A stretch of DNA of 64,000 nt from a virus, in IMG/VR virus record IMGVR_UViG_3300047157_000174, positions 1-64,000 of that record, one strand, 5' to 3'. A program made the position numbers and the translations under genes. How positions within the stretch are numbered: the stretch's first letter is position 1; every line of letters begins with the position of its first letter. The notes under the pieces were generated by a model, which had not been told where the DNA came from, ran no database searches, and saw only the letters and a program-made list of their open reading frames with translations. This document shows, piece after piece, positions 1 to 61,872 of the stretch.

Positions 1-2
1 AG

Positions 3-491
3 GTAGAAGAAAAGAACCTATCCTATCAAAACTTTAGTGTAGAAGATATTGGTAAAGCCAAAGTAAAGGTGCTTGGTAATAAAATTGGAATACAATCTGC
101 TATCAACGATAAAAGAGAACACCAAGTTCTTACTGCTAAACAATTAACTGAAAAGAAGTATGATTTAGTTATCTGTTGTGTAGACAATTTAGCGGCTAGA
201 AGACTCCTTTACAAAACAGGACACGGTGAAGACAGTGCTGTTAAGTGGTTAGACCTTAGAGCGCAAGGTAGGAACGGAGTATTGATTTCTTACAAAGTTA
301 ATCCAATACTAATACCGGATTTACTTGTCGGTGCAGAAGGTTCATTCAGTTGTCAAGGTGGAGATTGGGATGGTTCGGCTAAAGATATTAGTACTATGCA
401 CATTGCCATAGCAGGTATTGCAACCCAATGGATTCAACGTTGGTTTAATGATAATAATGACGTAGCAGATAAAATGGTAGTGAATGTATGA
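3..491 (+). CDS. ThiF/E1-like adenylyltransferase, C-terminal part (cut by window edge)
   Basis: The reading frame is open from the window edge (first full codon at 3), so only the C-terminal part is present; a GTG at 69 is probably internal. Visible features match the ThiF/MoeB/E1 fold. A segment of the type QNF..DIGKAKV matches the E1 stretch that follows the nucleotide-binding loop. It is followed by DLVICCVDN, the usual 'D-x-V-x-x-x-x-DN' strand and loop, and a late SCQGGDW that may hold the conserved cysteine. E1/ThiF enzymes adenylate the C-terminus of a ubiquitin-like or sulfur-carrier protein. The glycine-rich ATP loop would lie upstream, outside the window. The stop overlaps the next start by 4 bases (ATGA), and a JAMM isopeptidase lies two genes on, which suggests a ubiquitin-like modification or sulfur-transfer module. 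The E1-like call is good; the substrate is unknown. Confidence 0.75.
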   Translation, partial: VEEKNLSYQNFSVEDIGKAKVKVLGNKIGIQSAINDKREHQVLTAKQLTEKKYDLVICCVDNLAARRLLYKTGHGEDSAVKWLDLRAQGRNGVLISYKVNPILIPDLLVGAEGSFSCQGGDWDGSAKDISTMHIAIAGIATQWIQRWFNDNNDVADKMVVNV

Positions 492-730
492 GTGAAGAAG
501 ATACAGAAATAGATGATTTAATAGAAGAAGATGTAGGTAATATAATGAATGTTATTGCAACAGATGGTTTTTACTTACAAGCAGAAATAGTAAAGGTATG
601 TTGTCCTGTTTGTCTAGAAGAGTTCATGGGAACTAAAAGACACGCAGGTGGTTTCATAGCCGGACATAGAGCATTCCATGAGTTTGAGAACTCTCAAGAC
701 TTTATGGTAGAACAAATGGGGGGAATATAA
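488..730 (+). CDS. small zinc-binding protein (C2H2-like), between E1-like and JAMM genes
   Basis: An 80-residue acidic protein of no recognised family. Residues about 37 to 66 hold CPVC, then a glycine-rich loop, then two histidines in GHRAFH. This is a plausible single C2H2-type zinc site. It starts with an ATGA overlap on the E1-like gene and ends 2 bases before the JAMM gene, so the three are very likely co-translated. A role as adaptor or substrate-binding partner for its neighbours is only an inference from position. It has no glycine-glycine C-terminus and does not look like a ubiquitin-like modifier. Confidence 0.6.
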   Translation: MSEEDTEIDDLIEEDVGNIMNVIATDGFYLQAEIVKVCCPVCLEEFMGTKRHAGGFIAGHRAFHEFENSQDFMVEQMGGI

Positions 731-732
731 AA

Positions 733-1305
733 ATGAAAGAAGAAAATAAAGAAGAAATGAATAATGAAGAAAATAAAGAAGCAATGAAGGACTTTGATTG
801 GAAAGAACACATTAGGAGTGTTTACAAAGATATGTCTAATAGTGAAGGTGGTGTTAATTTTGTTAGACCATGTGCAGATACAGAAATGTTTCTATCCGCT
901 ATTTGGCAAATGTCTGATGAAGTATTAGAGGGCATGGAAGTACAAGTAGTAATAGATGACAAAGATGATTTGTATATTAGTAGCGGTACACCCGCTTTCG
1001 TATCGTTTCAAGGACACGAAGATGAATTAGTAAATGGCGCACCAATGAGAATACCGATTAAGAGTTGGATTCATACACACCCTTTCGGTGAAGCATACCT
1101 AAGTAGTACTGATTGGAAAACTGTCAATACATGGAACACTATGATGAAGAGTGCAATAGTATTAGGTGATAATCAATACCTAGCAGTTAATATGAATAAT
1201 GAACAATACGAAGAAGGAACTTATTCTGCAAAGAAAGTTTTCTATGGTTTGTTGCAACAGACAGTTTTTGATGATATAGAACCTACAACGGATGGTGAAG
1301 AATAA
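733..1305 (+). CDS. JAMM/MPN (Mov34/JAB1) metallo-isopeptidase-like protein
   Basis: A 190-residue protein with a clear JAMM signature: His114-Thr-His116-Pro, six residues, then Ser124-Ser-Thr-Asp127, which fits HxHP-x6-SxxD. The two histidines and the aspartate would hold the catalytic zinc, and an upstream glutamate in the segment around 64 to 75 could be the general base. JAMM proteins cut isopeptide or peptide bonds after ubiquitin-like C-termini, or process sulfur-carrier proteins. The first 25 residues are rich in Glu, Lys and Asn and look unstructured. A G-rich stretch before the ATG is a workable ribosome binding site. With the E1-like gene just upstream this forms a candidate conjugation/deconjugation pair. 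The family call is strong; the biological target is unknown. Confidence 0.8.
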   Translation: MKEENKEEMNNEENKEAMKDFDWKEHIRSVYKDMSNSEGGVNFVRPCADTEMFLSAIWQMSDEVLEGMEVQVVIDDKDDLYISSGTPAFVSFQGHEDELVNGAPMRIPIKSWIHTHPFGEAYLSSTDWKTVNTWNTMMKSAIVLGDNQYLAVNMNNEQYEEGTYSAKKVFYGLLQQTVFDDIEPTTDGEE

Positions 1306-2559: not shown

Positions 2560-2786
2560 GTGATGATATGGATATTATAGCGAGAGTTCCTCGCAACGCT
2601 ACTACCGAACTACTAATTAAAACAGGTGAGTTTTGGAAAGTAGAAGTAGTAGATGTAAGATGGTATTCCGATGGAAAGCCAACAAGAAAAGGAGTCAGAA
2701 TAAATATGGAAGAATTACCTACGTTAATTAAAGCGTTGGAAAAAATAAATAATAAAAATGAGGCGAATAAGGATGACACTAATTAG
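2556..2786 (+). CDS. PC4/YdbC-like ssDNA-binding protein
   Basis: A 76-residue protein starting at the ATG that overlaps the previous stop (ATGA); a TTG at 2547 is less likely. The pattern fits the PC4/p15 coactivator fold: strands around FWKVEVVDVRWY, a turn with KPTRKGVRI, then a helix beginning MEELPTLIKALEKI. PC4-like proteins bind single-stranded DNA as dimers and act in transcription or replication. The location next to DNA ligase and upstream of the replication genes fits. The family call rests on pattern recognition of a short protein, so it is moderate. Confidence 0.6.
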   Translation: MSDDMDIIARVPRNATTELLIKTGEFWKVEVVDVRWYSDGKPTRKGVRINMEELPTLIKALEKINNKNEANKDDTN

Positions 2787-4302
2787 ATTTGCAAGAATGT
2801 GTGAAGCAATAGAACTACAAGACAGTACAAAAAACAAAATTAGAATAATAGACGAATCTCTTAGTTCATTTTCTAATCCAAAAATAGTTATAGATATACT
2901 TAGTCTTAATTTAGAGGTTAATTCTATTGGTAACAAACGTGCTATAACTTGGATAGCAAATGCATTAGAATTATTTGATGCAGAAGTTAAAGCAGAAGAA
3001 GAAATATGGGGAGATATTGGTGAAGGTATGTATCAATTCCTACCCAACGGTAAAGAAAGTAATTACACCATTAAACAATTGTATTCTCTATTAACATTAG
3101 ACTGTTCCAGTATTAATAGCGATTCTTATACTACCTTTGCTGAGTCAATTAATAATATGTCTAATTTAGAATTAAAATGGTTTATTCGTTATTGGTTGAG
3201 GACACCTAGAAACAATATTTCTAATTCTACTGTTGTTAAAGCACTTAAAAGAAGATTTCCCAACCAAAAGGTAGAATATCTATCTTCCATACAACCTGTT
3301 TCCACTGTTTTTCAATATTTAGAGCAAGGAAAAGAACCTCCTACTACTATTCAAACAGGAATGTTTCTAAAACCTTCATTAGCAAAATCTTATTCTAATA
3401 ATTTACCTAAAAGATATATTTTAGATGTTAAATATGATGGTAATAGATACCAAATACATAAAAATAAATCTGATGTATTAATTTTTAATAGGAAAGGTAA
3501 GATAGTAAGTAATCAGTTTCCCGATGTAGTAGAACAAGTTAAAAAGTTTAACGCCAGTACTTGCATTTTAGATACTGAGATATATCCTGTCATCGAAAAC
3601 GGCAGTATAGACCCTGCACCACACAAGAAAATGGCCGCTAGGGTTCATGCTAAAGATAAACAAGAAGCCATGCTTAAATGCCCTGTTAAAATGGTTATAT
3701 TTGATATAATACAATACATGGGATTCCTGTTAATTGATGAACCATATGAAAAACGTCTTATTCATCTGAAAGATTTTCCTATCGAAAATAGAGTGTGGTC
3801 GTTTTCTAGAGAAACTACCATTGCAGCAGCCTATAACACTTCTATTAACAGTGGTTTTGAAGGTATTATGATAAAAGATTTAGATGCAAAATACAGAAGT
3901 GGTAGAAGTAGTAATATTTTGAAACACAAACCTCCTAGAATCGAATTAGATTTAGTTATAACTTCTGCTAAATATGGTGAAGGTAAAAGAGCAGGTTTGT
4001 TTGGTTCTTTTGGTATTTCAGCCAAAACTAAAAATGGTTATCAAAGTGTAGGCAATGTTGGTAGTGGTTTATCTGATGGGGATTTATTATACTTAACAAC
4101 AGAACTTAAAAAAACTATTGATAAGTATGCTTCCGATGTATTCTACGTTCTACCTAGAATTGTATTAGAAGTAAGGTGTGATTTAATATCACAAGATTCC
4201 GATGGTAATTATGGTCTGAGATTTCCTAGAGTTGTAAGAATTAGGAACGACAAACACGCTTACAATTGCAGTACAATGGAAGATATAAAAAATATGATAT
4301 AG
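2773..4302 (+). CDS. lig: ATP-dependent DNA ligase (early, replication block)
   Basis: Joins DNA nicks through an enzyme-AMP intermediate. From the ATG at 2773 it has 509 residues. The adenylation lysine is Lys220 in KYDGNR (motif I). A later LDTEIY matches motif III, GFEGIMIKD motif IV, and the following LKHKPP region motif V, with an OB-fold C-terminus after that. The N-terminal 200 residues are the helical DNA-binding domain usual for archaeal ligases (normal length 550 to 600). I prefer 2773 (MTLIRFARMCE, preceded by AAGG) over the ATG at 2758. The gene overlaps the PC4-like gene by 14 bases. A second, very different ligase is present in the late block at 57638-60247. Confidence 0.92.
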   Translation: MTLIRFARMCEAIELQDSTKNKIRIIDESLSSFSNPKIVIDILSLNLEVNSIGNKRAITWIANALELFDAEVKAEEEIWGDIGEGMYQFLPNGKESNYTIKQLYSLLTLDCSSINSDSYTTFAESINNMSNLELKWFIRYWLRTPRNNISNSTVVKALKRRFPNQKVEYLSSIQPVSTVFQYLEQGKEPPTTIQTGMFLKPSLAKSYSNNLPKRYILDVKYDGNRYQIHKNKSDVLIFNRKGKIVSNQFPDVVEQVKKFNASTCILDTEIYPVIENGSIDPAPHKKMAARVHAKDKQEAMLKCPVKMVIFDIIQYMGFLLIDEPYEKRLIHLKDFPIENRVWSFSRETTIAAAYNTSINSGFEGIMIKDLDAKYRSGRSSNILKHKPPRIELDLVITSAKYGEGKRAGLFGSFGISAKTKNGYQSVGNVGSGLSDGDLLYLTTELKKTIDKYASDVFYVLPRIVLEVRCDLISQDSDGNYGLRFPRVVRIRNDKHAYNCSTMEDIKNMI

Positions 4303-43890: not shown

Positions 43891-45636
43891 TTAATGCATT
43901 AAAGCCCATTTACCTTTATATTGTGCATTGTTTAATGTTCTTGCTGATGCTGTAAATGAAACCTCTATTGCACCTTTATCTTCGGGGAAAGGAATATCAA
44001 CAGTGTTTATTATAAAATCTGTTAATTTTAATTTAATAAATTCTCCTGATTCCTTAGTAAAGTTCAATTCAATAAAACCTACTGATTCATTATCTTTTCT
44101 TAATTCATCCCAAAGTGTTGTATCTGTAATCAATGCTGTCATTGAAATCTCATATGTTCTTTGTGCAGGTATATGTTCATTCATAACTTGCCTACTTGTA
44201 TTTCCGATGTATCTAGCAGGTGTAATATTATTATTTATAGTGATAGAACCTGATTTAACTCTAGCATATGTTTCACTAAACACTTTCAACGCACCATCAG
44301 AAAACATAAATGGGTAATTATCTGAAGCAGTAGCACTAAAGTTTTGTAAATCACTTGTGTTTAATTTACCATTATGCGGCACATAATCATCTGCTTCAAG
44401 CATAACAATTGCTCCAACCGGAAAACTAGAAGTTAATGCTGTAATTGTTAAGGTGTTAGTTGATTTTGCAGACCATGTAAACTCAACTCCGTTAATAGTA
44501 CCTCTACCTGTACTTCCAAAGCCACTAGCGTCAGCAAGAACTAATGATGTAGCGTTAGCAGTATAAGCAGTAGCGACGGTATTTTGAACTACGGAATTAG
44601 AAGGTGCATCAAAAACTCTCCTACAAACTAAATCTAAACTAGTTTTTAATTCTGATTCTGATTCAAAATTAAGAGTTAAGGTATTAACTTGACAACCCGT
44701 AAATATCCGAGAATATATATTCTCATGTGGGGTTAGATTATCAACGGGAGTGCTTGCAGACACACCTGCTTTTCTATATGATACATCTAACCCGAAAGAA
44801 GGAAGGGAAGCACCGTTGGTTTCGTCAAAAGTATAAGTCAAAAAATCAGCAGAAGCAATTTCATCATAAGCAGGTAAGTTACTAAGAGTGCCTTCGACAG
44901 TATCGGTTGTCGTTGAAAGAGGTGGGTATTCTATTCCCCCTGTTATCACTCTCGAAATACCAACCCCCCCACTATTGTAGATAAATTTATTTTCAGTTGA
45001 GGCATCCCATGCTTCCGAACTATCACTGCCACTATTTGTTAATGCAGATACTTTTCCTAAAGCATAAAATAACCAAGAACCGTTATTCATTGATATATCT
45101 AAAGAACCTCCACTAACGGTTTCTGCACCTTTATATTGTAAACCAATATTTCTAGTATTTCCTCCTACTAAGTTTAGTGAAACTAACTGAGCGTCAACGC
45201 TAGGAGGTGAGAATGAATTAACTAACCCTAACCAATTATCTGACAATAATTTAGGACTTCCTAATGCACTATTAGTATAACTAGTAGGTGCAATAACAGG
45301 AGCGCCAAAACTCAATAATGTAACATGAACGACTTCTGTACCTGTGGTTATCACCGATACATCACTATCTAAAGTAAAACTTTTAGAATCATTAGAATTG
45401 ACACTAGCGTAGAAAACAGCCCCTCCTGTTCCGCTTACAACCTTTACCCTACATCCTTGATATAAATTAGTAATAAGTTTAAATTTTTCTTGGTCGGTTG
45501 TTTCCAAAACTACAATGTTTAAATTAGGAACTTCGGCTGAACCAAAAGTAACTACACAATCATCAAAATACATATCCATTTCAGGCACTAAAGTAGCCAT
45601 TGTCCCTGCGCCTACAAACACTTCATTACTTACCAT
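43891..45636 (-). CDS. probable major tail tube protein
   Basis: A 581-residue beta-rich protein between the tail terminator-like gene and the tail chaperones, the usual position of the tail tube. Repeated strand pairs and small Gly/Ser loops suggest tube domains with one or two added surface domains. The end has WDELRKDNESVGFIELNFTKESGEFIKLKLTDFIINTVDIPFPEDKGAIEVSFTASA-type organisation, as in tail tube proteins where the last strands form the ring. It is longer than common tube proteins (150 to 400 residues). No enzyme motif. Bases 43804-43890 hold no gene, only a possible small hairpin (CTATTA/TAATAG). Confidence 0.6.
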   Translation of the reverse strand: MVSNEVFVGAGTMATLVPEMDMYFDDCVVTFGSAEVPNLNIVVLETTDQEKFKLITNLYQGCRVKVVSGTGGAVFYASVNSNDSKSFTLDSDVSVITTGTEVVHVTLLSFGAPVIAPTSYTNSALGSPKLLSDNWLGLVNSFSPPSVDAQLVSLNLVGGNTRNIGLQYKGAETVSGGSLDISMNNGSWLFYALGKVSALTNSGSDSSEAWDASTENKFIYNSGGVGISRVITGGIEYPPLSTTTDTVEGTLSNLPAYDEIASADFLTYTFDETNGASLPSFGLDVSYRKAGVSASTPVDNLTPHENIYSRIFTGCQVNTLTLNFESESELKTSLDLVCRRVFDAPSNSVVQNTVATAYTANATSLVLADASGFGSTGRGTINGVEFTWSAKSTNTLTITALTSSFPVGAIVMLEADDYVPHNGKLNTSDLQNFSATASDNYPFMFSDGALKVFSETYARVKSGSITINNNITPARYIGNTSRQVMNEHIPAQRTYEISMTALITDTTLWDELRKDNESVGFIELNFTKESGEFIKLKLTDFIINTVDIPFPEDKGAIEVSFTASARTLNNAQYKGKWALMH

Positions 45637-46176: not shown

Positions 46177-46370
46177 GCACTCATCTCCTTTTCAATATCC
46201 TTAACTAATTCTGCACTAAGAACATCTATTGCATTATTCAAAATATCATCTTCTGAAAAACTAATATCGAACCCCAACTCTGATTCTAATTCCTTTAGAA
46301 TTAGATTACGTTCCTCTTGTATTCTAATTAATTCAGTAAGTCTTTGATGAAAGTTTCTCATATTAATCAC
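46164..46370 (-). CDS. small helical head-tail junction protein (unknown)
   Basis: A 68-residue protein made of helices (FHQRLTELIRIQEERNLILKELESEL, then DVLSAELVKDIEKEM). It starts in ATGA overlap with the connector gene and overlaps the next gene by 13 bases. It might be a stopper or neck component; the position is the only reason to say so. Confidence 0.5.
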   Translation of the reverse strand: MINMRNFHQRLTELIRIQEERNLILKELESELGFDISFSEDDILNNAIDVLSAELVKDIEKEMSAWMK

Positions 46371-47443
46371 GAAATAAAATGTATTAGATTTTTCTTACCA
46401 TCAATAATTTTATTTGCCTCTTCAAGTAAAATATCATGTTTAGTTTTCAAATCTATGTTAGAACCTGTCTCTGCAATCATAATAGAATTATCATCATGTC
46501 GAATAACTTCTGCTGCTACTAATTTAGTAGCGGCTTCGTGTATAGGAGCAGGTACTCTTCCATCTCCGGCTACATAAGTTACTCTAATAGAATGGTTTTG
46601 TACATACGGAAACTCTCTTCTAAAAAATATCTTACCTTCACTATCAATAGTCCAATAATCTCCCATTCTATTTTGGTCTTGATTATCAGTAAAACTTGTA
46701 ACTGAACCAAAGTTAGAAGTCAAAGTACAGGCTGAACCATCCTCACCCATTAATAAAGAAGAAATAATTACAGTTTTACTATCTTCTGAATCAGTAGTTG
46801 CATAAAAGAAATCCGAAATATGCACATTAGTATTACCATTTGCAGTAACAGATTTAGGTGCTACCTCTCCTGTAAACTTAGCAGTTTTATGTGGGAAAAC
46901 TTCATTGATAGCATCCACTAACTGACTAGCAGTAGTTTTAGGGCCGAAGTTATCATAAAAATGCGTACTCTCAACTAAGTTAAAAGTGTAAGAACCTACT
47001 GTTAATGAAATAGTCCAAGCACTATTTGTTACAGATGTTGGTAATGTTATTTTAGCAGTAGCAGAAGCCAAATCTTTGTATTCATTTCCCTGCCAAACTT
47101 CTAATCTTACTATTTTCTGAACTTTAGGTTGCGACAATTGAACAAAACCAACATAATCTTTCCATATAGATACAGGATAAGCCCCTTTATTCCAACCATC
47201 AAAAGAAAAATATTCATCCTTATGTATTATAGGACGATATGATTGTTTGATACCGTCATCTATTTTTTCTTCTACTCTTTTTATTATCTTACCAACTTCT
47301 GCTCTTGTAGGAGTAGTACTATCACTAAAAGCACTAATTTGTAATAGATTAGAAACATCTGTATGAGTAGTATAATACCCAAATCCAATATTATAATTTA
47401 CGTCTATATTTGTGAAATCGCTTGGTGAACTTACTTTACCCAT
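46367..47443 (-). CDS. head-tail connector (adaptor-like) protein with inserted domain
   Basis: A 358-residue protein. The N-terminal helix region (EVGKIIKRVEEKIDDGIKQSYRP) and the C-terminal helices after YVAGDGRVPAPIHEAATKLVAAEVIRHDD resemble the gp6/gp15-type adaptor that sits under the portal. A beta-rich insert of about 150 residues separates them. Adaptors are usually 100 to 200 residues, so this one is enlarged. Gene order fits: it precedes the small junction protein, terminator and tube. Confidence 0.55.
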   Translation of the reverse strand: MGKVSSPSDFTNIDVNYNIGFGYYTTHTDVSNLLQISAFSDSTTPTRAEVGKIIKRVEEKIDDGIKQSYRPIIHKDEYFSFDGWNKGAYPVSIWKDYVGFVQLSQPKVQKIVRLEVWQGNEYKDLASATAKITLPTSVTNSAWTISLTVGSYTFNLVESTHFYDNFGPKTTASQLVDAINEVFPHKTAKFTGEVAPKSVTANGNTNVHISDFFYATTDSEDSKTVIISSLLMGEDGSACTLTSNFGSVTSFTDNQDQNRMGDYWTIDSEGKIFFRREFPYVQNHSIRVTYVAGDGRVPAPIHEAATKLVAAEVIRHDDNSIMIAETGSNIDLKTKHDILLEEANKIIDGKKNLIHFIS

Positions 47444-51441: not shown

Positions 51442-52155
51442 TTAAGCAAGCCATTTGGCCCATGCAACTGCTTTACCCAATCCTTGTGCTAGACCTAGAC
51501 CACTTTGAGGTGGAGTATATGTTGGTTGACCTGTTTGTGGGTCAATCCAATAAGGATTATTCATGTTGTCATAACCACTAGGAGGAATAGGATAACCGCT
51601 ACCGTTGTTCATAGCCATTTGTTGTTGGTTTAGAGTATTGTTAAAATTAGTACTCATGTTTCCTCCTTGTATTTGACTTGGATTTAACCCTTGAGGATTC
51701 ATACCCATTTGAGGATTCATACCCATGTTGGTAGAAGGAGCAGGTGCAGATGGAGAACTAAACCCTTGTGCTTCGAGATACTGTTGTTTAGCCATTCTTC
51801 TTTGCATTACAACTTCACTATTGATAGCAGTAGCCAATAGATTTTGTATATCTAAATCAATATTTTCTTGCGTTATAGCAGTAAATTCATTTAACGCATC
51901 GGGTGTAATAGAAAGGTTTCCACTAGAACTTTGACTAAATTCTAATTTAACTAACATCTGACTAACACTTCTAGTAACTGTATCTTCAATTAGTTTTTCT
52001 AATGCCGTTAAGAATGATTCTCCATGATATTGAAAGAAATCTTCTACATGGTTTTCTTGTAAAGTTAGAAGATTATTCATTGCCTTGAATTGTGTTTGTT
52101 GTTGCGCTCCTATTTGAGTCGCAAGGTTACTATTACTTGTACCAAATAATCCCAT
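51442..52155 (-). CDS. virion-associated protein with Gln/Asn/Pro-rich C-terminus (unknown)
   Basis: A 237-residue protein. The first 120 residues are helical. Residues about 130 to 210 are a low-complexity region of Met, Asn, Gln, Pro and Gly with repeats of MGMNPQ, and the end is hydrophobic (AQGLGKAVAWAKWLA). It looks like a flexible structural protein, perhaps with a membrane- or protein-anchoring tail. No known family. Confidence 0.5.
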   Translation of the reverse strand: MGLFGTSNSNLATQIGAQQQTQFKAMNNLLTLQENHVEDFFQYHGESFLTALEKLIEDTVTRSVSQMLVKLEFSQSSSGNLSITPDALNEFTAITQENIDLDIQNLLATAINSEVVMQRRMAKQQYLEAQGFSSPSAPAPSTNMGMNPQMGMNPQGLNPSQIQGGNMSTNFNNTLNQQQMAMNNGSGYPIPPSGYDNMNNPYWIDPQTGQPTYTPPQSGLGLAQGLGKAVAWAKWLA

Positions 52156-52158
52156 TAA

Positions 52159-52848
52159 TCACTCCCCCCCTGTTTCAACATTGACAACGTTAACGCCTTC
52201 GGTTAATAGAGTTTTGACTCTTTCATTAATATTGTTAGTTTCAATAATTAATCTAAATAATTCTTCTTCTTTATTTTCAACACCGTTGTTTGGAGGTCGG
52301 ATAGTCCAACCCATAGCAGAAAGAGATTGCATATCTGTTTGTTTTAATGTTGTCATTGGGCCTGATGTTACTAAGTTAACAGGATTTAAACTTTTAGCAG
52401 ATGGAATATATGCACTAAAAGAAAGACCATGTTCCTCTGCTAATATTTGCTGTTCTAACATCTCATATTGTCTATGAATTGCAGCGTGTTTTTCACAATA
52501 TGTTCCTCTCATGGGATAGCCTTTTCTTACTTTATGTAAAGGTAGAGGAGGTCTCCTAACATCACCTGATTCCCAAACTTTTTGTGAACCACAAACCACA
52601 CATCTATCTTTTAAATTATATTTGAATCGGTATGGTATTTTCAAAAATTTCTTTTTTTCGGGCATCAAAACTTTGATTATTTCTTTCAATTGTTTTTTGG
52701 GCTTTAGGTTTTTATACTCATATTGTATAATTGAACCTGCTGCTCTTGCGGCAGAAAATCTATCTAAAAATGGGTTAGTTCCCACATGGGCTGACTGTGC
52801 GCCAATAAGGTTTGTTGGGTTGTAGTTCATTGTCATGTGGTAATTCAC
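52159..52848 (-). CDS. zinc-finger protein of the late block (unknown)
   Basis: A 229-residue protein with CVVCGSQKVW followed about 30 residues later by YCEKHAAIH, a plausible CCCH zinc site near residues 83 to 120. The segment before it is basic (KKKFLKIPYRFKY). It starts 2 bases after the GTPase stop and may act with it. It is the only clear zinc-finger protein in the late block, in contrast to the early block. No family is assigned. Confidence 0.55.
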   Translation of the reverse strand: MNYHMTMNYNPTNLIGAQSAHVGTNPFLDRFSAARAAGSIIQYEYKNLKPKKQLKEIIKVLMPEKKKFLKIPYRFKYNLKDRCVVCGSQKVWESGDVRRPPLPLHKVRKGYPMRGTYCEKHAAIHRQYEMLEQQILAEEHGLSFSAYIPSAKSLNPVNLVTSGPMTTLKQTDMQSLSAMGWTIRPPNNGVENKEEELFRLIIETNNINERVKTLLTEGVNVVNVETGGE

Positions 52849-52850
52849 CC

Positions 52851-53519
52851 TTAGTAGTCCTTTATCATTGTTAGGATTCCTCTATATACCATCTCTGAAT
52901 CAGATTTGGCACTTACTATATATTTGTAGCATGGTATTCCTTTATCATTTAACTTCTGCATACCATTTCTAAAGGATTCAAATATTGGATGTTTTTCTAT
53001 TGTTTCATAATCATATTTGTCTTTCCACAAATCATGTTTGTTAGCCCAAAGACCAACTGCTACGGGATAATCATGTAACTTTTTCTTTTTTCTTTTTCCG
53101 CCAATATTCCAATAAGGACTACAAATAGTATCTACCAAAAAAGTCCAACATAATTGTTGTTCTATATCATAGTGCTTATCCATATGTCTATCATCTAACA
53201 TAAAAATTATATATTTAACTTTTCGAGTTCTCATATCTTCTACCCACTCTTGCCAAAATACTGTTTCACCTCCGACATCAGCAGTTTTAACAGTATGAGC
53301 ATCACCGTCTAATTTTACATATTTTCTTGAGGCTCTATGTAGCCCTACGGTTCTATCTGTAATAGAAGGAACTTCACCTCTAGTTCTTAATTGATGATGT
53401 AATGTAGTTTTACCTGCTTTACTTGCTCCATATACCCCAAATGGTATAGAATGTAATCTTTGGTAAACTTTATTCATACCTTCTACTAATAGAATAGCGA
53501 AGCCCGCCATTACTGACAT
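52851..53519 (-). CDS. Arf/Arl-like small GTPase
   Basis: A 222-residue GTPase. G1 is GASKAGKTT at 31 to 39. A threonine for G2 lies in PSITDRT near 54 to 57. G3 is DVGGE at 81 to 85, G4 is ANKHDL with NKHD at 160 to 163, and G5 is SAK at 203 to 205. AGKTT, DVGG and ANKxDL are Arf-family hallmarks. The Arf catalytic Gln is Glu85 here, which could slow GTP hydrolysis. The N-terminus is hydrophobic (MAGFAILLVEGM), as if membrane-associated. A KRKKKK patch near 142 to 147 is extra. It lies just after two membrane protein genes, with a GGTGAT site before the ATG. Its role is unknown; membrane or egress functions are inference. Confidence 0.85.
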   Translation of the reverse strand: MSVMAGFAILLVEGMNKVYQRLHSIPFGVYGASKAGKTTLHHQLRTRGEVPSITDRTVGLHRASRKYVKLDGDAHTVKTADVGGETVFWQEWVEDMRTRKVKYIIFMLDDRHMDKHYDIEQQLCWTFLVDTICSPYWNIGGKRKKKKLHDYPVAVGLWANKHDLWKDKYDYETIEKHPIFESFRNGMQKLNDKGIPCYKYIVSAKSDSEMVYRGILTMIKDY

Positions 53520-53525
53520 TATATA

Positions 53526-53750
53526 TCACCATAAATGATGCCATAAATTAACTATCCCATTCCATGTAGAAGTAAACAAATTATAACCAAACAAAGATAT
53601 TGCATGGCCGACCAAGAAACTAATTCCACAAGCAATACCACTCCAAAGAAAAAATCTTGCTCTTAAAAACCAAATATCAGCAGAATGCGCTCTTTGTAAA
53701 TCATAGGCTAATGTGGATTCATCGAACCCCATTAGGATTTCTCCTACCAT
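53526..53750 (-). CDS. small membrane protein upstream of the GTPase gene
   Basis: A 74-residue protein. Residues 28 to 54 form one long or two short membrane helices (FFLWSGIACGISFLVGHAISLFGY), and the end is aromatic (WNGIVNLWHHLW). Its last codons contain the ribosome binding site of the GTPase gene (GGTGA), so the two are translated together. A start at 53732 (MGFDES) is also possible. Likely partner of the GTPase; function unknown. Confidence 0.6.
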   Translation of the reverse strand: MVGEILMGFDESTLAYDLQRAHSADIWFLRARFFLWSGIACGISFLVGHAISLFGYNLFTSTWNGIVNLWHHLW

Positions 53751-53758
53751 ATAATCAC

Positions 53759-54184
53759 CTACTCATTGAACCCTGTTAAAAATGTTGGGCTAATTGTATT
53801 CCCTTCAAACTGTTGTGATTGTTGTTGCATTGCAGGTAAATTAGCATCTCCATAGAAAGGTTGACCGAATGATTGATTGAAACTTCTAAGTGATTCTCTA
53901 ACTCTTTTACGATTTTCCTCATCTCTTGCTTTTCTATTCCAATAAGCATCTATTTTTCTTTGTAATAAAAAATCTTCAATAATATCATTTAACATTAAAT
54001 CAAATAATGCCTTCAATAACATAATACCTCCTACTGTACATATTCCAAACAGTACTGCGTGGGATAATCCCGTGTATGGAAAGTCAACTCCATATATAGT
54101 GTAAAAATAAATGTTAGTGCCACTAATAGCACCAACGAAAAGTATAGTCATTACTAATCTTGTATCTGTATCAATACTAGGCAT
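53759..54184 (-). CDS. two-helix membrane protein with charged cytoplasmic tail
   Basis: A 141-residue protein. Two membrane helices lie near 10 to 31 (LVMTILFVGAISGTNIYFY) and 41 to 63 (HAVLFGICTVGGIMLLKALF). An Arg/Glu-rich helical region follows (RKARDEENRKRVRESL), then a Gln-rich end. Placement among capsid genes suggests a membrane protein made late in infection. Together with its small neighbour and the Arf-like GTPase it forms a membrane-GTPase cluster. Confidence 0.6.
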   Translation of the reverse strand: MPSIDTDTRLVMTILFVGAISGTNIYFYTIYGVDFPYTGLSHAVLFGICTVGGIMLLKALFDLMLNDIIEDFLLQRKIDAYWNRKARDEENRKRVRESLRSFNQSFGQPFYGDANLPAMQQQSQQFEGNTISPTFLTGFNE

Positions 54185-55003: not shown

Positions 55004-56407
55004 TTAAGCACTCTTTAGGTTTGTAATTTTACCTTGTCCCTTGAAGAAAGAACAGCAAGTTTCTCCCATAGTGCGGTACATTCCTTGATTTCCAAGTTTA
55101 CCAACACCGAATGGGTTTCCACTAGTAATACCATCTTCGAAGTATTGTGTAGGTTTCATTACAGATAGCCATAGGTGGTCGGTATCTAGAACTAATATAT
55201 CACTAATTCTGTTAGATGTGGACTTACCTGTTGACGGCATATCTTTAGCAGGGATGATTGGTATGTCATAGTATGTTGCAACTCTGAAACCAACTTCTTG
55301 ACCCTTGACACCACGAACACCATTATGGGAAGGAACGATTTCTTTCCTATCCATAAATCTCTCTTGTGATTGTAGTAAATCGGAGATTTTCTGAATGGTA
55401 TCGTATCCTGTAATGATAACTTTAGGGTTTCCACCGTTAGTACGGATTCTTCTAATCATATCATTAAGAATACTTAGTGTTAGAACTCTACATTCACCTG
55501 ATGTATAACCTGCACCGAAATCAACTTCTGCATCTAGGAAAGATGGAACACCTGTGTAGGTATATGCTCCACTTCCTCCTGATGTGTTAACAGTAACAGT
55601 TCTAGTTGAACCAAAGATAGTAGTAGCATCAGCAAGTTGTGCTGCTGTACCGTTATTTGTTTGGTTGTGGTAGAATACGTCATCATCGGCCATAGTTGCA
55701 ATTTCAACAGCAGAAGAAACTATCTTCATCAAAGAAGTGTAGTTCTTCTCAATACCAGTAGTACCGTTCTCTGAGTATTTCTCAAGAGGCATAACTAACA
55801 TTTTGCTCTGAACCTCTGCGTGTAATTTACCCATGTCTTCTCTTACAATAGCACGAATATCACCAACACCATCATCTATTGCAGCCATTTCCATTCCTAG
55901 TTCTGAGAACTCGAATAGATGTGCAATAGTCTTAGGGCTAACATATAGTTTAGTATATTCAGGAGCAATTGCTCTGAAACCATCTGCACCACCTAATGTT
56001 GCGTTTTCTCCAACACCACCAATTTGGTCTGCTCTAGGAGTTGCTGCATCTGCTGATGAAATACTAGCGGTAACTGCATTAGTACCTGTACCGAATGCTG
56101 CGTCACTACCACCAATAGGTCGTGATTTCAGAACTCTCCATCCACTAGATGTGTATGGTCTCTTAGCAAGCATTGCTAGAGGGTTTACTTCTTGGTTTAA
56201 TACAGACCAAACTTTCTGTCCATATAGTAGGTTGTACAAATCACCTAGACCTGCTGCACCCGTAAATGCATTAGCACTAGTATCGTGAGGAGTACCGAAA
56301 CCACCTACAACTCCACCTGCTTTAAGCAAGGCATTGCCGCTTCCTGTTCCGCCATATCCGTATGTTGCTGCTTCTAAATCTTTCATTGTTTTAATATATC
56401 CACTCAT
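55004..56407 (-). CDS. major capsid protein (HK97-type)
   Basis: A 467-residue protein right after the protease-scaffold gene. An N-terminal Gly/Ala-rich arm of about 60 residues is followed by LYGQKVWSVLNQEVNPLAML. A long central helix lies in DIRAIVREDMGKLHAEVQ. The P-domain-like end has VLDTDHLWLSVMKPTQYFEDG. This order and length fit a HK97-fold capsid protein. The arm may be cut by the neighbouring protease. Codon use looks somewhat more optimised than in neighbours, consistent with high expression. An RNA hairpin follows the gene. Confidence 0.85.
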   Translation of the reverse strand: MSGYIKTMKDLEAATYGYGGTGSGNALLKAGGVVGGFGTPHDTSANAFTGAAGLGDLYNLLYGQKVWSVLNQEVNPLAMLAKRPYTSSGWRVLKSRPIGGSDAAFGTGTNAVTASISSADAATPRADQIGGVGENATLGGADGFRAIAPEYTKLYVSPKTIAHLFEFSELGMEMAAIDDGVGDIRAIVREDMGKLHAEVQSKMLVMPLEKYSENGTTGIEKNYTSLMKIVSSAVEIATMADDDVFYHNQTNNGTAAQLADATTIFGSTRTVTVNTSGGSGAYTYTGVPSFLDAEVDFGAGYTSGECRVLTLSILNDMIRRIRTNGGNPKVIITGYDTIQKISDLLQSQERFMDRKEIVPSHNGVRGVKGQEVGFRVATYYDIPIIPAKDMPSTGKSTSNRISDILVLDTDHLWLSVMKPTQYFEDGITSGNPFGVGKLGNQGMYRTMGETCCSFFKGQGKITNLKSA

Positions 56408-57637: not shown

Positions 57638-60247
57638 CTAATCGTTAATTTTAGGTGGAAATTCTAAATTGGAATATTTATCCTCTTGAATATTCCAAAC
57701 ATCTACGTCATCTTCATCCTTCAACATATCTTGTTTTTTACCTGTCCAAACTATCCATGTTTTTTTCTCATTAAGAGGCACTACTCTAACGTGTATTCTA
57801 GTGTCGAACTTATCTCCTTCTAATTTATATTCATGGTAGCCATCCTTTTGGACTCCTAGAATAACATTTCCCTTGTCTATAACTTTACCACCGTTTATTT
57901 TTTCTGCTACAATAGCAGGGTATTTATTCGATTTACCAAATAAATTATACACATCATCAGTATCTTCAATGTCTATTAACCAAGCAAACCGTTTTTTCTT
58001 ATAATCAATTATAAAATTAAGATTGCCGTCTTCTTGTTTAGTTATTGTAAACTCGCCCGTTCTAGATTCTTCTTTATGAATAACCATATCATCTGTATCT
58101 TTTTCTAAAACTTCTTCGTTAGACATGAAAGTATTAGGGTGTTTGTAAATGAACGAATCTTGTTTTTTCATCCAATTCATTAATTTAGATTCGAGTGAAT
58201 CAAAAAGACTTTGGTATAAATCCATATGATTTTTTCTAACAAATAGTAATATTTTATCAAACTCTAGAGCATCTTTACCACTATCTAATATTTCATTACG
58301 AATTGATATTCTTAATTCGGAACGTTTACTTTTTATTAATTGATTTAATTCTTCTTTCCACAAATCAATATTATGCAGAGCATTTTTCTCCATTAAATTA
58401 TCGCCCTCAAATCCATATAAAGTATAGCCTTCTAAATTTTCCTTTAATATTATTTCAGCAACACCGTGCGTATCATCTGTAATATAATATCCTTTCTTAA
58501 GTTTTTTAGGTTTTACTAAATCGGATTCCATACCACTCATAATTCTAAATGGCTTAGGAACTTTACCTGCAAGACCCTGTACTAAAGTGCTAAGAGATTT
58601 CTTACTTTTGCTTGCTAATTTTTCTAAAGTAGCAATATTATCAGATTGTGTTACTTCCGGTATTTCTATTACTTTAGCAGAATACAAACTGAATCCGTTT
58701 TTCTTCTTAGTTACTTCATCAACTTTAACTCTAACAATAGAGCCTATGTCAACATTTATTTTTGTGTTGAGAGCCTTACCAACTTCTAAATATGCTTTAT
58801 CTTCATAATCAACAGTAGAATAGTTTCTAGCAACTTCTGCTGTAACAGGGCCGATTCCCATAGTATAAGAATGTAGATTACTTTTTGTCTTTCTATCGTT
58901 TAATACCACTACATCTAAATCAACAAATTTTTTCCACTTAATCCACTTTGGATTTTTTCTATTTCCTATGTAATATGTAGATTCAATGTCTTTGATAACC
59001 ACACCTTCTGACGCAGGTAGTTTCATAATATCTTGAGAATAGTTTTCAACTTCTTTCTTTGAATCTGCTATTCTAGTATCTTTCTTAGATGGGAATGCTA
59101 GTTTTTCTGAGGAATGTTGAGCGTATTGATATAATAAAATATTAATTCTTTCTCTTAATGGAGTATCTGTAATATCTTTACCTTCGTGTAACATAATATC
59201 AAAAACGTGAGCCTTCAATGTGCCTTCTGTTTTTTTGTGGAATACATGAGTGATAGTATCTGCTCGGTGTAACGGTTCATCTTCCATAAACAACATTAAT
59301 TCTGCATCTAAAATACAATCTCCAAACTGTTTCTTTTCCATATGCTTAACTTGTTCTGAACATTTAGAAGTAATATCCTTTTGATTAAAGGAATATATTT
59401 TAACTTCATCATTGAACTTGTGTATTTGTATTCTCATACCATCGTATTTTTCTTGAACAACAAACTCTCCCGTTAACCCCTTAATGTCATCTAAATCATC
59501 TATCTCGAAAATCCGATACATTGGTTTGTTAGGTTTAATAAAATCTATACCTGCTTTTTTTTCTTGTTCATCATCTGCCTTTGAAATGTCTAATTCTAAT
59601 AATGAATCCCATTGTTCTTCATTATATTTTTCTAGATATATTTTTTCTAATTGTTTAAATCCCTTTTTACATTTAGATTCTATTCTTCTGTTATCAGAAT
59701 CTTCATCACCATAATGTTCCAATATGTAAATAGGTACATCTTTAGGTTCTAAGTCTAACCCCATATATCCCTGCGTTATTTCATCGGGTTTCATACCATG
59801 TGCTTTCCAAGATTTTTCCGGTATAGTATTAGCATGAGACCTTACAGCATAATGAATAAATGCTAATAACATTGATTCATTTTTTAGAAACTCTTTGATT
59901 ACATTATCTCCTAATTGTTTAGAAAAAGGGTCTGATATTTTATCTGATTTAAACCTAAGATTTTTTACTCCTTCATATATTTCCTTTGCCTGTCTTGAAG
60001 TAGGGTCATATGCCTCATCGGAAAAAGCAGTATCTTCTTTTAGATGTCTTTTCAATTCTCTAGTAAAATCTCCCAAAGAATCATATTGGTCTCTTACTTC
60101 TTTAACTGTTTTTTTCCATTTATTTCCATACTCGGAAGGATTCTCTTTTGCAGAAAGATATGAATATCTTACCCTTTCAAAAAAGTCTAGAACTCTTTTA
60201 GTTAAAGAACTCTTTTCCTTTTCAAATAAAAGTCCTGTTTGTGGCAT
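57638..60247 (-). CDS. second, large ATP-dependent DNA ligase in the head module (869 residues)
   Basis: Residues about 250 to 540 form a complete ligase core: motif I EKYDGMR with Lys267, LDAELM (motif III), EGVVIKD (motif IV), KWIKWKKF (motif V) and an OB-fold region with IGSIVRVKVDEV. About 250 residues lie before it and 330 after. The C-terminal part includes a beta-rich domain (FTITKQEDGNLNFIIDY, then HEYKLEGDKFDTRIHVRVV) that is slightly like the LigD phosphoesterase or XkdF-associated domains. It lies between head genes and the protease-scaffold, so it is made late and could be packaged. An additional end-repair role is inference. Confidence 0.85.
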   Translation of the reverse strand: MPQTGLLFEKEKSSLTKRVLDFFERVRYSYLSAKENPSEYGNKWKKTVKEVRDQYDSLGDFTRELKRHLKEDTAFSDEAYDPTSRQAKEIYEGVKNLRFKSDKISDPFSKQLGDNVIKEFLKNESMLLAFIHYAVRSHANTIPEKSWKAHGMKPDEITQGYMGLDLEPKDVPIYILEHYGDEDSDNRRIESKCKKGFKQLEKIYLEKYNEEQWDSLLELDISKADDEQEKKAGIDFIKPNKPMYRIFEIDDLDDIKGLTGEFVVQEKYDGMRIQIHKFNDEVKIYSFNQKDITSKCSEQVKHMEKKQFGDCILDAELMLFMEDEPLHRADTITHVFHKKTEGTLKAHVFDIMLHEGKDITDTPLRERINILLYQYAQHSSEKLAFPSKKDTRIADSKKEVENYSQDIMKLPASEGVVIKDIESTYYIGNRKNPKWIKWKKFVDLDVVVLNDRKTKSNLHSYTMGIGPVTAEVARNYSTVDYEDKAYLEVGKALNTKINVDIGSIVRVKVDEVTKKKNGFSLYSAKVIEIPEVTQSDNIATLEKLASKSKKSLSTLVQGLAGKVPKPFRIMSGMESDLVKPKKLKKGYYITDDTHGVAEIILKENLEGYTLYGFEGDNLMEKNALHNIDLWKEELNQLIKSKRSELRISIRNEILDSGKDALEFDKILLFVRKNHMDLYQSLFDSLESKLMNWMKKQDSFIYKHPNTFMSNEEVLEKDTDDMVIHKEESRTGEFTITKQEDGNLNFIIDYKKKRFAWLIDIEDTDDVYNLFGKSNKYPAIVAEKINGGKVIDKGNVILGVQKDGYHEYKLEGDKFDTRIHVRVVPLNEKKTWIVWTGKKQDMLKDEDDVDVWNIQEDKYSNLEFPPKIND

Positions 60248-60939: not shown

Positions 60940-61263
60940 TCAATAATAATCCCACGCTAAGTATTTTCTTGTTAACTTACCTCTTTTATCGAACTTATAA
61001 GTAGCAACTGTATATTCTGGAATAGGTTCACCATCATCTATACCAACATCAAGATAATATGCCTCATCTTCATCAAGATAACTTATATCAAGAATGTAGT
61101 CTTTTAATTCATCTACATCATAACTTTTTTCCCTTAATTCTTCTAATTTGGTTTCATTGTAATCATCTTCGCCAAATATATGTTGATTAAAGAAATCATC
61201 TACTGCTTTATCTAATTTCTTCGGATGCAATCTTTTTATTTTTAGTATATCTTCCCAACTCAT
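60940..61263 (-). CDS. head-module protein with N-terminal MSWEDILK motif (1)
   Basis: A 107-residue acidic protein beginning MSWEDILK. The rest is a helical region (KKLDKAVDDFFNQHIFG) followed by beta strands (YLDVGIDDGEPIPEYTVATYKFD). I recognise no family. The start and leader (61241-61271) are identical over about 31 bases to those of the neighbour at 61549. That points to duplication of a signal segment joined to a different body. Likely a protein packaged in, or built into, the head. Confidence 0.6.
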   Translation of the reverse strand: MSWEDILKIKRLHPKKLDKAVDDFFNQHIFGEDDYNETKLEELREKSYDVDELKDYILDISYLDEDEAYYLDVGIDDGEPIPEYTVATYKFDKRGKLTRKYLAWDYY

Positions 61264-61279: not shown

Positions 61280-61549
61280 TTACCTAATCTGACTTTTATT
61301 GATACCTACACCTCTGACGGTGAATTTCGCTGTCTCTCTAGGTCTATCTTTTGTTCCCATTAGACATCTAACAAAAATAGGCAGGTCAAAACCAAGAACA
61401 GGTTGTGAGGAAGAGGAATAAATAACGTCGGATTTAACACCAAACTTCTCATCTATCATTTTCATGATATCTTCTAAATCCCCCTCTTCTCCTATCAGTT
61501 CCTCTAACTCTGCCATTACATCTTTCTTTAGTATATCTTCCCAACTCAT
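61280..61549 (-). CDS. head-module protein with N-terminal MSWEDILK motif (2)
   Basis: An 89-residue protein with the start MSWEDILK followed by helices (MAELEELIGEEGDLEDIMKMID) and a C-terminal beta part (FDLPIFVRCLMG, then ETAKFTVRGVG). The body is not related by eye to the neighbours. It overlaps the upstream gene by 4 bases (ATGA) and has GGGGGATT before the ATG. Function unknown; a shared targeting signal is proposed. Confidence 0.6.
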   Translation of the reverse strand: MSWEDILKKDVMAELEELIGEEGDLEDIMKMIDEKFGVKSDVIYSSSSQPVLGFDLPIFVRCLMGTKDRPRETAKFTVRGVGINKSQIR

Positions 61550-61872
61550 TCTAAATCCCCCTTACTCTTTGGATAAACCAAGTCTCGTATTTGCCGATAC
61601 AAAGTTTCGTAATCTTTTCTAAGTTCTGCTGCTGATGAAACTATTTCTAGATTCTTTTCATCAAAGCCCTCGAACTTTTTTTGAAGTCTTTTATCAGACT
61701 TAATTAAGTCTAATTTTTTCATCTCATCTAACAGGTCTGAAAGATGTGTCATCTCTTGACCCATGTATTCAGTAGGCTGAGTTTTTTGAAGAAGTTTCTT
61801 AAGTTTCTTCTTTTGTTTAGCATCAATTTTTTCTAAAATTGAAGGTGATTTTAGTATTTCTTTCCAACTCAT
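61546..61872 (-). CDS. head-module protein with N-terminal MSWKEILK motif (3)
   Basis: A 108-residue basic, helical protein. The ATG at 61872 gives the start MSWKEILK, matching the neighbours; a TTG at 61878 would add two residues. The rest is Lys/Leu/Glu-rich (KQKKKLKKLLQKTQ, then HLSDLLDEMKKLDLIKSDKRL), likely a DNA- or protein-binding coiled coil. It overlaps the next gene (ATGA). No family. Confidence 0.6.
   Translation of the reverse strand: MSWKEILKSPSILEKIDAKQKKKLKKLLQKTQPTEYMGQEMTHLSDLLDEMKKLDLIKSDKRLQKKFEGFDEKNLEIVSSAAELRKDYETLYRQIRDLVYPKSKGDLE

Follow-up and report, generated by a model that had tools for sequence, protein, structure and literature searches.

A core small GTPase gene in the head module of magrovirus-type viruses and its possible role as a membrane-tethered switch

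Introduction

Control of membranes by small GTPases is usually seen as a eukaryotic trait, and the archaeal protein ArvA is a recent case outside eukaryotes. In Haloferax, ArvA drives vesicle budding together with ArvB and the zinc-finger protein ArvC, a proposed GAP (PMC10927574). ArvA (HVO_3014 of Haloferax volcanii) is a single-domain small GTPase with an N-terminal amphipathic helix; it is annotated as PF01926, its best profile match is PF00025, and its 1,666 homologues were drawn from cellular genomes (PMC10927574). In the Arv gene order, ArvB lies directly downstream of ArvA and ArvC within two genes (PMC10927574). Among viruses, T4 prohead assembly starts from the membrane-bound portal (gp20) with the chaperone gp40 (PMC9958956).

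The Magrovirales are characterised by genomes of 90-110 kb in two opposed modules, a split PolB, RFC-S, TFB, an SF1 helicase, a ligase, an HK97-type MCP, TerL and a portal protein, and their hosts are the Poseidoniales, the marine group II archaea (PMC10768690, PMC12999244).

Here we describe a small GTPase gene in a window of 64,000 nucleotides, which is positions 1 to 64,000 of the IMG/VR virus record IMGVR_UViG_3300047157_000174. Viruses with this GTPase are numerous in sunlit ocean waters, and because neither they nor their hosts have been cultured, their assembly and exit from the cell are obscure. A slow-evolving GTP switch encoded beside two membrane proteins would offer a testable handle on this question. 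No description of a magrovirus GTPase was found in the literature searched, to which Philosof 2017 and Prabhu 2025 did not belong.

Results

The record that holds the window is 96,094 bases long, and its first and last 999 bases are identical (an exact direct terminal repeat at window positions 1-999 and positions 95096-96094 of the full record, G000). The record therefore represents a complete genome of 95,095 bases that was assembled as a circle. It is organised in two opposed modules and encodes an HK97/SU10-type capsid protein, an S78 protease, TerL and a portal-like protein, as well as ATP-dependent DNA ligases, an RFC small subunit, a split family-B polymerase, an SF1 helicase and TFB. 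All Magrovirales hallmarks that were tested are present in this 95-kb genome, and the source virus is of magrovirus type; by the literature on Magrovirales, its host would belong to the Poseidoniales. A separate observation is that two distinct proteins with ATP-dependent DNA ligase domains occur in this one virus. The ligase at 2758-4302 (plus strand) is of the canonical three-domain type and sits in the replication module, and the 869-aa ligase-domain protein at 57638-60247 (minus strand) belongs to the late block, adjoins the protease gene and is kept in relatives.

The GTPase gene (52851..53519, minus strand) was recognised from its ORF, Pfam profiles, AlphaFold2 and Foldseek results and conservation, and encodes a protein of 222 aa that begins MSVMAGFAILLVEGMNKVYQRLHSIPFGVYGASKAGKTT. 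As first read from the letters alone, the ORF contains GASKAGKTT, DVGGE, ANKHDL and SAK in this order, with Glu at residue 85. On the minus strand these are G1/P-loop (residues 31-39, 53403..53429), G3/switch II (residues 81-85, 53265..53279), G4 (NKHD at 53031..53042, within ANKHDL at residues 159-164) and G5 (residues 203-205, 52905..52913), and a switch I motif, RTVG, is found at residues 56-59 (53343..53354). The G1-G5 motifs are invariant or near-invariant in 46-47 relatives. The invariant residues include G36, K37, T38 and T39 of the P-loop, R56, T57 and G59 of switch I, D81, G83 and G84 of G3, N160, K161 and D163 of G4, and S203, A204 and K205 of G5. Such residues are the signature of a nucleotide-binding G domain.

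Single-protein Pfam searches returned SRPRB (E 1e-4), Arf (2e-3), Roc (3e-3) and MMR_HSR1 (7e-3), all below the curated cut-offs. When 46 divergent relatives were searched at E<=0.1, 45 matched MMR_HSR1, 31 SRPRB, 31 Roc, 26 Ras and 15 Arf. The AlphaFold2 model, which is of modest confidence overall (pLDDT 68.6, pTM 0.71) and of low confidence over the switch regions, shows strands and helices in the Ras-type order, preceded by a helix at the N-terminus. The predicted fold gave 1,362 Foldseek matches in the PDB at E<1e-3, headed by KRAS, ARL8/ARL10B, Rab and Arf1 (E about 5e-8 to 2e-7 for KRAS, ARL8/ARL10B and Arf1). A different P-loop class, for example a packaging accessory ATPase, was considered and rejected, as NKxD and SAK are invariant and the fold matches are small GTPases. 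Structure prediction, profiles and motifs thus all point to what the earlier note had proposed, and on these grounds the class is secure and the protein is confirmed as a Ras-superfamily (TRAFAC) small GTPase. It is predicted to bind and hydrolyse GTP and would thereby cycle between nucleotide states.

The placement within the superfamily is looser. Arf proteins typically have a helix ahead of their G domain, GKTT, DxGG[Q], a beta2-beta3 interswitch and a Trp 11 residues past the G3 Asp. With Arf, Arl and Sar1 (PF00025), the viral GTPase shares the N-terminal helix, GKTT, DxGG (DxGG[EQ] among relatives), the interswitch and the Trp, and its predicted fold matches ARL8, ARL10B and Arf1. In contrast to these proteins, it has Ser at residue 2 in place of the myristoylation glycine, mostly carries Glu at residue 85, and is not aromatic at the positions aligned to F51, W66 and Y81 of Arf1, the Phe/Trp/Tyr aromatic triad. 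The Arf profile scores 17.8 bits against a gathering cut-off of 22.3, and SR-beta (PF09439) 22.2 bits against 25. The profile comparison with Arf, SR-beta and Roc that had been suggested yields similar scores for all three, as for MMR_HSR1 and Ras, and none of these families reaches its cut-off. The initial "Arf-type" description is carried by motifs, helix and Trp and is at odds with the missing triad and glycine; the subfamily is not secure, and "Arf-like" holds loosely.

The same description had stressed Glu in place of the catalytic Gln. Across 128 sequences DxGG is invariant, and residue 85 is either Glu (86 sequences) or Gln (42 sequences). This split is explained by two parsimony changes on the tree, and the Glu form is therefore a stable functional alternative. 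Glu at the site of Ras Gln61 need not abolish hydrolysis. Glu85 is thus present as claimed, but as a clade-specific alternative that represents neither decay nor a simple catalytic loss.

The hydrophobic helix at the N-terminus (residues 1-22, 53454..53519, minus strand; helix 2-22 in the AlphaFold2 model, with invariant G6, F7 and E13) is the sole hydrophobic stretch of the protein, with a 19-residue hydropathy of 0.7-1.8 versus at most 0.78 elsewhere. It is a putative membrane-binding element. Since the stretch is short, holds an invariant acidic residue (Glu13) and lies at or under the hydropathy threshold of 1.6 in 27 of 46 relatives, the helix may be packed against a partner or the GTPase itself and not against a membrane.

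Two small membrane-protein genes are located immediately upstream on the same strand, in line with the first reading, and were characterised from their ORFs and hydropathy. MP1 (53759..54184, minus strand; 141 aa) has two hydrophobic segments followed by a charged helical tail, and MP2 (53526..53750, minus strand; 74 aa) has a conserved AYDLQRAHSADIWFLRARF segment followed by one hydrophobic segment. The pre-membrane segment of MP2 is invariant at A15, Y16, D17, Q19, R20, A21, H22, S23, A24 and D25. The ribosome binding site of the GTPase gene was said to lie in the end of its upstream neighbour, and the Shine-Dalgarno sequence GGTGA (53526..53530, minus strand) indeed overlaps the last codon of MP2, for Trp, and its stop.

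Directly downstream of the GTPase gene is a gene for a Zn-binding-type protein of 225 aa (52159..52836, minus strand) with the pattern CxxC-31-CxxH, and all four ligands are kept in 48 of 48 relatives. ATG at 52836, which is preceded by GGTGA, is a likelier start than GTG at 52848. The protein had no match in Pfam, among PDB sequences or by fold, and its predicted model was poor. Its candidacy as an Arf-GAP was rejected on these null matches, with no GAP fold detected; its spacing of ligands also differs from that of known ArfGAPs. The next gene, p51442 (51442..52155, minus strand), encodes a conserved Gln/Pro-rich protein of 237 aa in the same block and is kept in relatives. One clade has insertions of one or two small genes between the GTPase and Zn genes (L295 from 13073, L297 from 5842, L315 from 4986, L353 from 12768, L314 from 4158 and L341 from 12821). 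The products mostly start with an MW..I[LI]K-type sequence and are otherwise mutually dissimilar. This gap appears to be a preferred site for the insertion of accessory genes.

Upstream of the cassette is the HK97/SU10-type major capsid protein (55004..56407, minus strand; Pfam SU10_MCP E=1e-10, PHROG major head protein 4.5e-23). Downstream are p51442, a 1,326-aa protein, a head-tail adaptor-like protein (46367..47443, minus strand; phrog_442 E=6e-4), the tail tube protein (43891..45636, minus strand; Pfam Phage_tube_2 1e-15), a tail assembly chaperone and the tape measure. The cassette is placed between capsid and head-tail connector genes, thus where other tailed viruses keep decoration or neck genes. 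No canonical lysis gene was recognised near it with Pfam and PHROG. In the Druskaviridae HCTV-1 and HVTV-1, a single N-terminally hydrophobic protein of 109-110 aa is encoded a few genes past the capsid gene, at the place of MP1 and MP2 (HCTV-1 gene 116, L158:14203-14532; HVTV-1 gene 124, L278:10199-10531), so one membrane-type protein at this site may be older than the GTPase.

A GTPase relative is encoded by 336 IMG/VR stretches. These were chosen by the GTPase itself, and loci were therefore also chosen by their capsid protein in two scans, each comprising the best 80 loci, so that magrovirus clades with more distant capsids lie outside the sample. In the first scan, all 59 loci that extended 3.5 kb or more past the MCP gene carried the GTPase, the 17 others ending at a contig edge. 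In the second scan, seeded with a halovirus capsid, the order MP1-MP2-GTPase-Zn-p51442 was found in every marine locus whose flank was long enough (MCPs 56-76% identical to that of the window); the haloarchaeal Druskaviridae (22-29%) lack the cassette, and neither HCTV-1 nor vir335 has homologues of it. In the sampled loci MP1 and MP2 are always upstream and the Zn protein is always the next conserved gene downstream. As it is present in every capsid-selected marine locus of sufficient length, the GTPase is a core gene of the sampled magrovirus group, which is newly shown here.

The GTPase is also more conserved than the MCP in 78 of 84 loci (median identity 77.9% versus 72.4%). Its dN/dS was 0.02-0.07 in six comparisons, below that of the MCP in most, and indicates strong purifying selection. 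Distances in the GTPase tree track those in the MCP tree (Mantel r 0.79, 0 of 999 permutations), and the gene is therefore old in this virus group. With a universal cassette in the sampled loci, low dN/dS and agreeing trees, decay and sporadic capture were both rejected, and the locus is neither absent nor degraded in close relatives, the outcome that would have spoken against the first interpretation. Phylogeny, which had been proposed to separate host capture from an old viral lineage, answers the question as far as age within the virus group is concerned.

Beyond this group, the GTPase had no PHROG match and was found neither in INPHARED (50,697 phage records) nor in PLSDB (72,556 plasmid records). 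In BFVD, the proteins matched by fold at E<1e-3 come almost entirely from giant viruses and are mostly Ras/Rab GTPases; no GTPase of a tailed phage is among them. These results agree with the assertion that small GTPases are unusual in tailed viruses. The sole match in a species-representative genome collection was a magrovirus contig with the full cassette (L157) in a Maricaulis MAG, which is binning contamination.

Discussion

Our preferred reading, for which we see an even balance of belief and doubt, is that the protein is a virus-encoded membrane-tethered GTP switch whose gene belongs to the core set of the head/neck module in magroviruses. In such a switch, the N-terminal hydrophobic helix would attach the GTPase to MP1/MP2 or to the cytoplasmic membrane of the host. 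Binding of GTP would then shift switches I and II and cause partners to be recruited or released, candidates being the conserved cytosolic segment of MP2 and perhaps the Zn protein as a regulator. A late membrane-linked step, either anchored head assembly or remodelling for egress, could in this way be timed to happen once. As the GTPase is present in all sampled loci of sufficient length, lies in the capsid module and changes less rapidly than the capsid protein, an essential step of assembly or exit that is linked to the membrane is probably under its control. Its partnership with MP1, MP2 and the Zn protein, and the choice of these two steps, are suggested by gene order and analogy. The earlier proposal that a viral membrane switch may act in assembly, lysis or entry is a sound hypothesis.

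The closest functional parallel appears to be ArvA, when the two are set side by side by description. Both are small GTPases with an N-terminal helix, are encoded in an operon with a Zn-type protein and match PF01926 and PF00025. However, the Arv system is cellular, whereas in the viral set two membrane proteins are encoded upstream and no ArvB-like gene was recognised. The gene set leans towards an Arv-like membrane function, and in an egress version, which we regard as rather unlikely, the cassette would be a viral Arv analogue that acts when infection ends, by budding or rupturing the membrane of the host. Equally doubtful are its details, in which MP1/MP2 act as membrane effectors or are holin-like and the Zn protein is a GAP-like regulator. 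The operon layout shared with Arv (PMC10927574), the common profile families and the lack of a recognised canonical lysis gene near the cassette are consistent with it. At sequence level, though, an approximate ArvA sequence scored 16.0 bits against the viral profile, only like KRAS/HRAS (15.9), and among plasmids, phages and viral contigs it found only bacterial Era/Der-type proteins and nothing archaeal. Lysis and egress genes are moreover usually variable, while this GTPase is more conserved than the capsid and its cassette is inside the head module. Position in this module and conservation lean slightly to assembly.

A head-assembly version would have MP1/MP2 anchor the portal or prohead at the cytoplasmic membrane, as gp40 does for gp20 in T4, with the GTPase as a timing or proof-reading switch that lets completed heads go on to receive the connector. 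It is supported by a cassette that lies between the small post-MCP genes and the head-tail adaptor in every genome, by the hydrophobic protein at the equivalent place in Druskaviridae, by conservation and a tree that track the MCP, and by the T4 precedent (PMC9958956), in which viral factors likewise tie head assembly to the cytoplasmic membrane. The T4 system has no GTPase, however, a Ras-type GTPase belongs to no known head-assembly pathway, and position alone is weak evidence; this version is also an unlikely one. The structural operon and high conservation would also suit a GTPase that, with MP1 and MP2, is packaged or associated with the neck or tail and acts on the host membrane at entry. 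This is improbable, since no encapsidation signal or structural motif was found and a GTP switch needs cytosolic GTP. With SR-beta (PF09439), the viral protein shares a membrane-anchored Arf-class layout of anchor plus G domain, and its best Pfam match as a single protein is SRPRB (E 1e-4), which might suggest that it aids the targeting or insertion of viral membrane proteins via the host SRP pathway. However, the match is below the cut-off, MMR_HSR1 is hit by 45 of 46 relatives and SRPRB by 31, the SR-beta family is eukaryotic, and the viral gene has other neighbours and so far no partner resembling the SR-alpha X domain. We consider this role very improbable.

Returning to the membrane-tethered switch, its wider form is that magroviruses run a GTP-switched, membrane-coupled step of morphogenesis or egress with their own Ras/Arf-class GTPase, dedicated membrane receptors and a regulator. 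We put this forward tentatively, somewhat short of an even call. If true, tailed dsDNA viruses would have their first example of a structural module with its own small-GTPase system, and the Arf/Sar membrane switches would have a counterpart in an archaeal virus; we know of no other tailed virus with such a GTP-switch cassette. Giant-virus Ras/Rab GTPases, the main viral Foldseek matches, are also virus-encoded members of the Ras superfamily, but they occur in viruses of eukaryotes, no sequence-level link to them was found, and to our knowledge none is part of a structural operon. The magrovirus proteins form a new family of small GTPases, in a context from which no such protein had been known, and if they act on membranes, small-GTPase control of membranes would also belong to the core machinery of a prokaryotic virus. 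That neither PHROGs nor the searched set of annotated phage records contains them marks a gap in current virus annotation.

An observation of another kind concerns an N-terminal tag, M-[STND]-W-x-x-[IV]-[LIV]-[KR], found in 13 otherwise dissimilar proteins of this virus (for example MSWEDILK and MNWFDVIK), where residue shuffling gives 0.05 on average. All are encoded on the minus strand, at 60940-61263, 61280-61549 and 61546-61872 in the window, and at 64180-64542, 72356-74743, 75408-75719, 77209-77541, 77538-77993, 78006-78527, 78533-78877, 78879-79304, 79571-79774 and 79774-80622 in G000. T4 internal proteins carry a capsid-targeting sequence (PMC9958956), and by analogy the shared tag may be a targeting signal of this or another sort. 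With a narrower pattern, 75 distinct tagged proteins were found in other marine loci.
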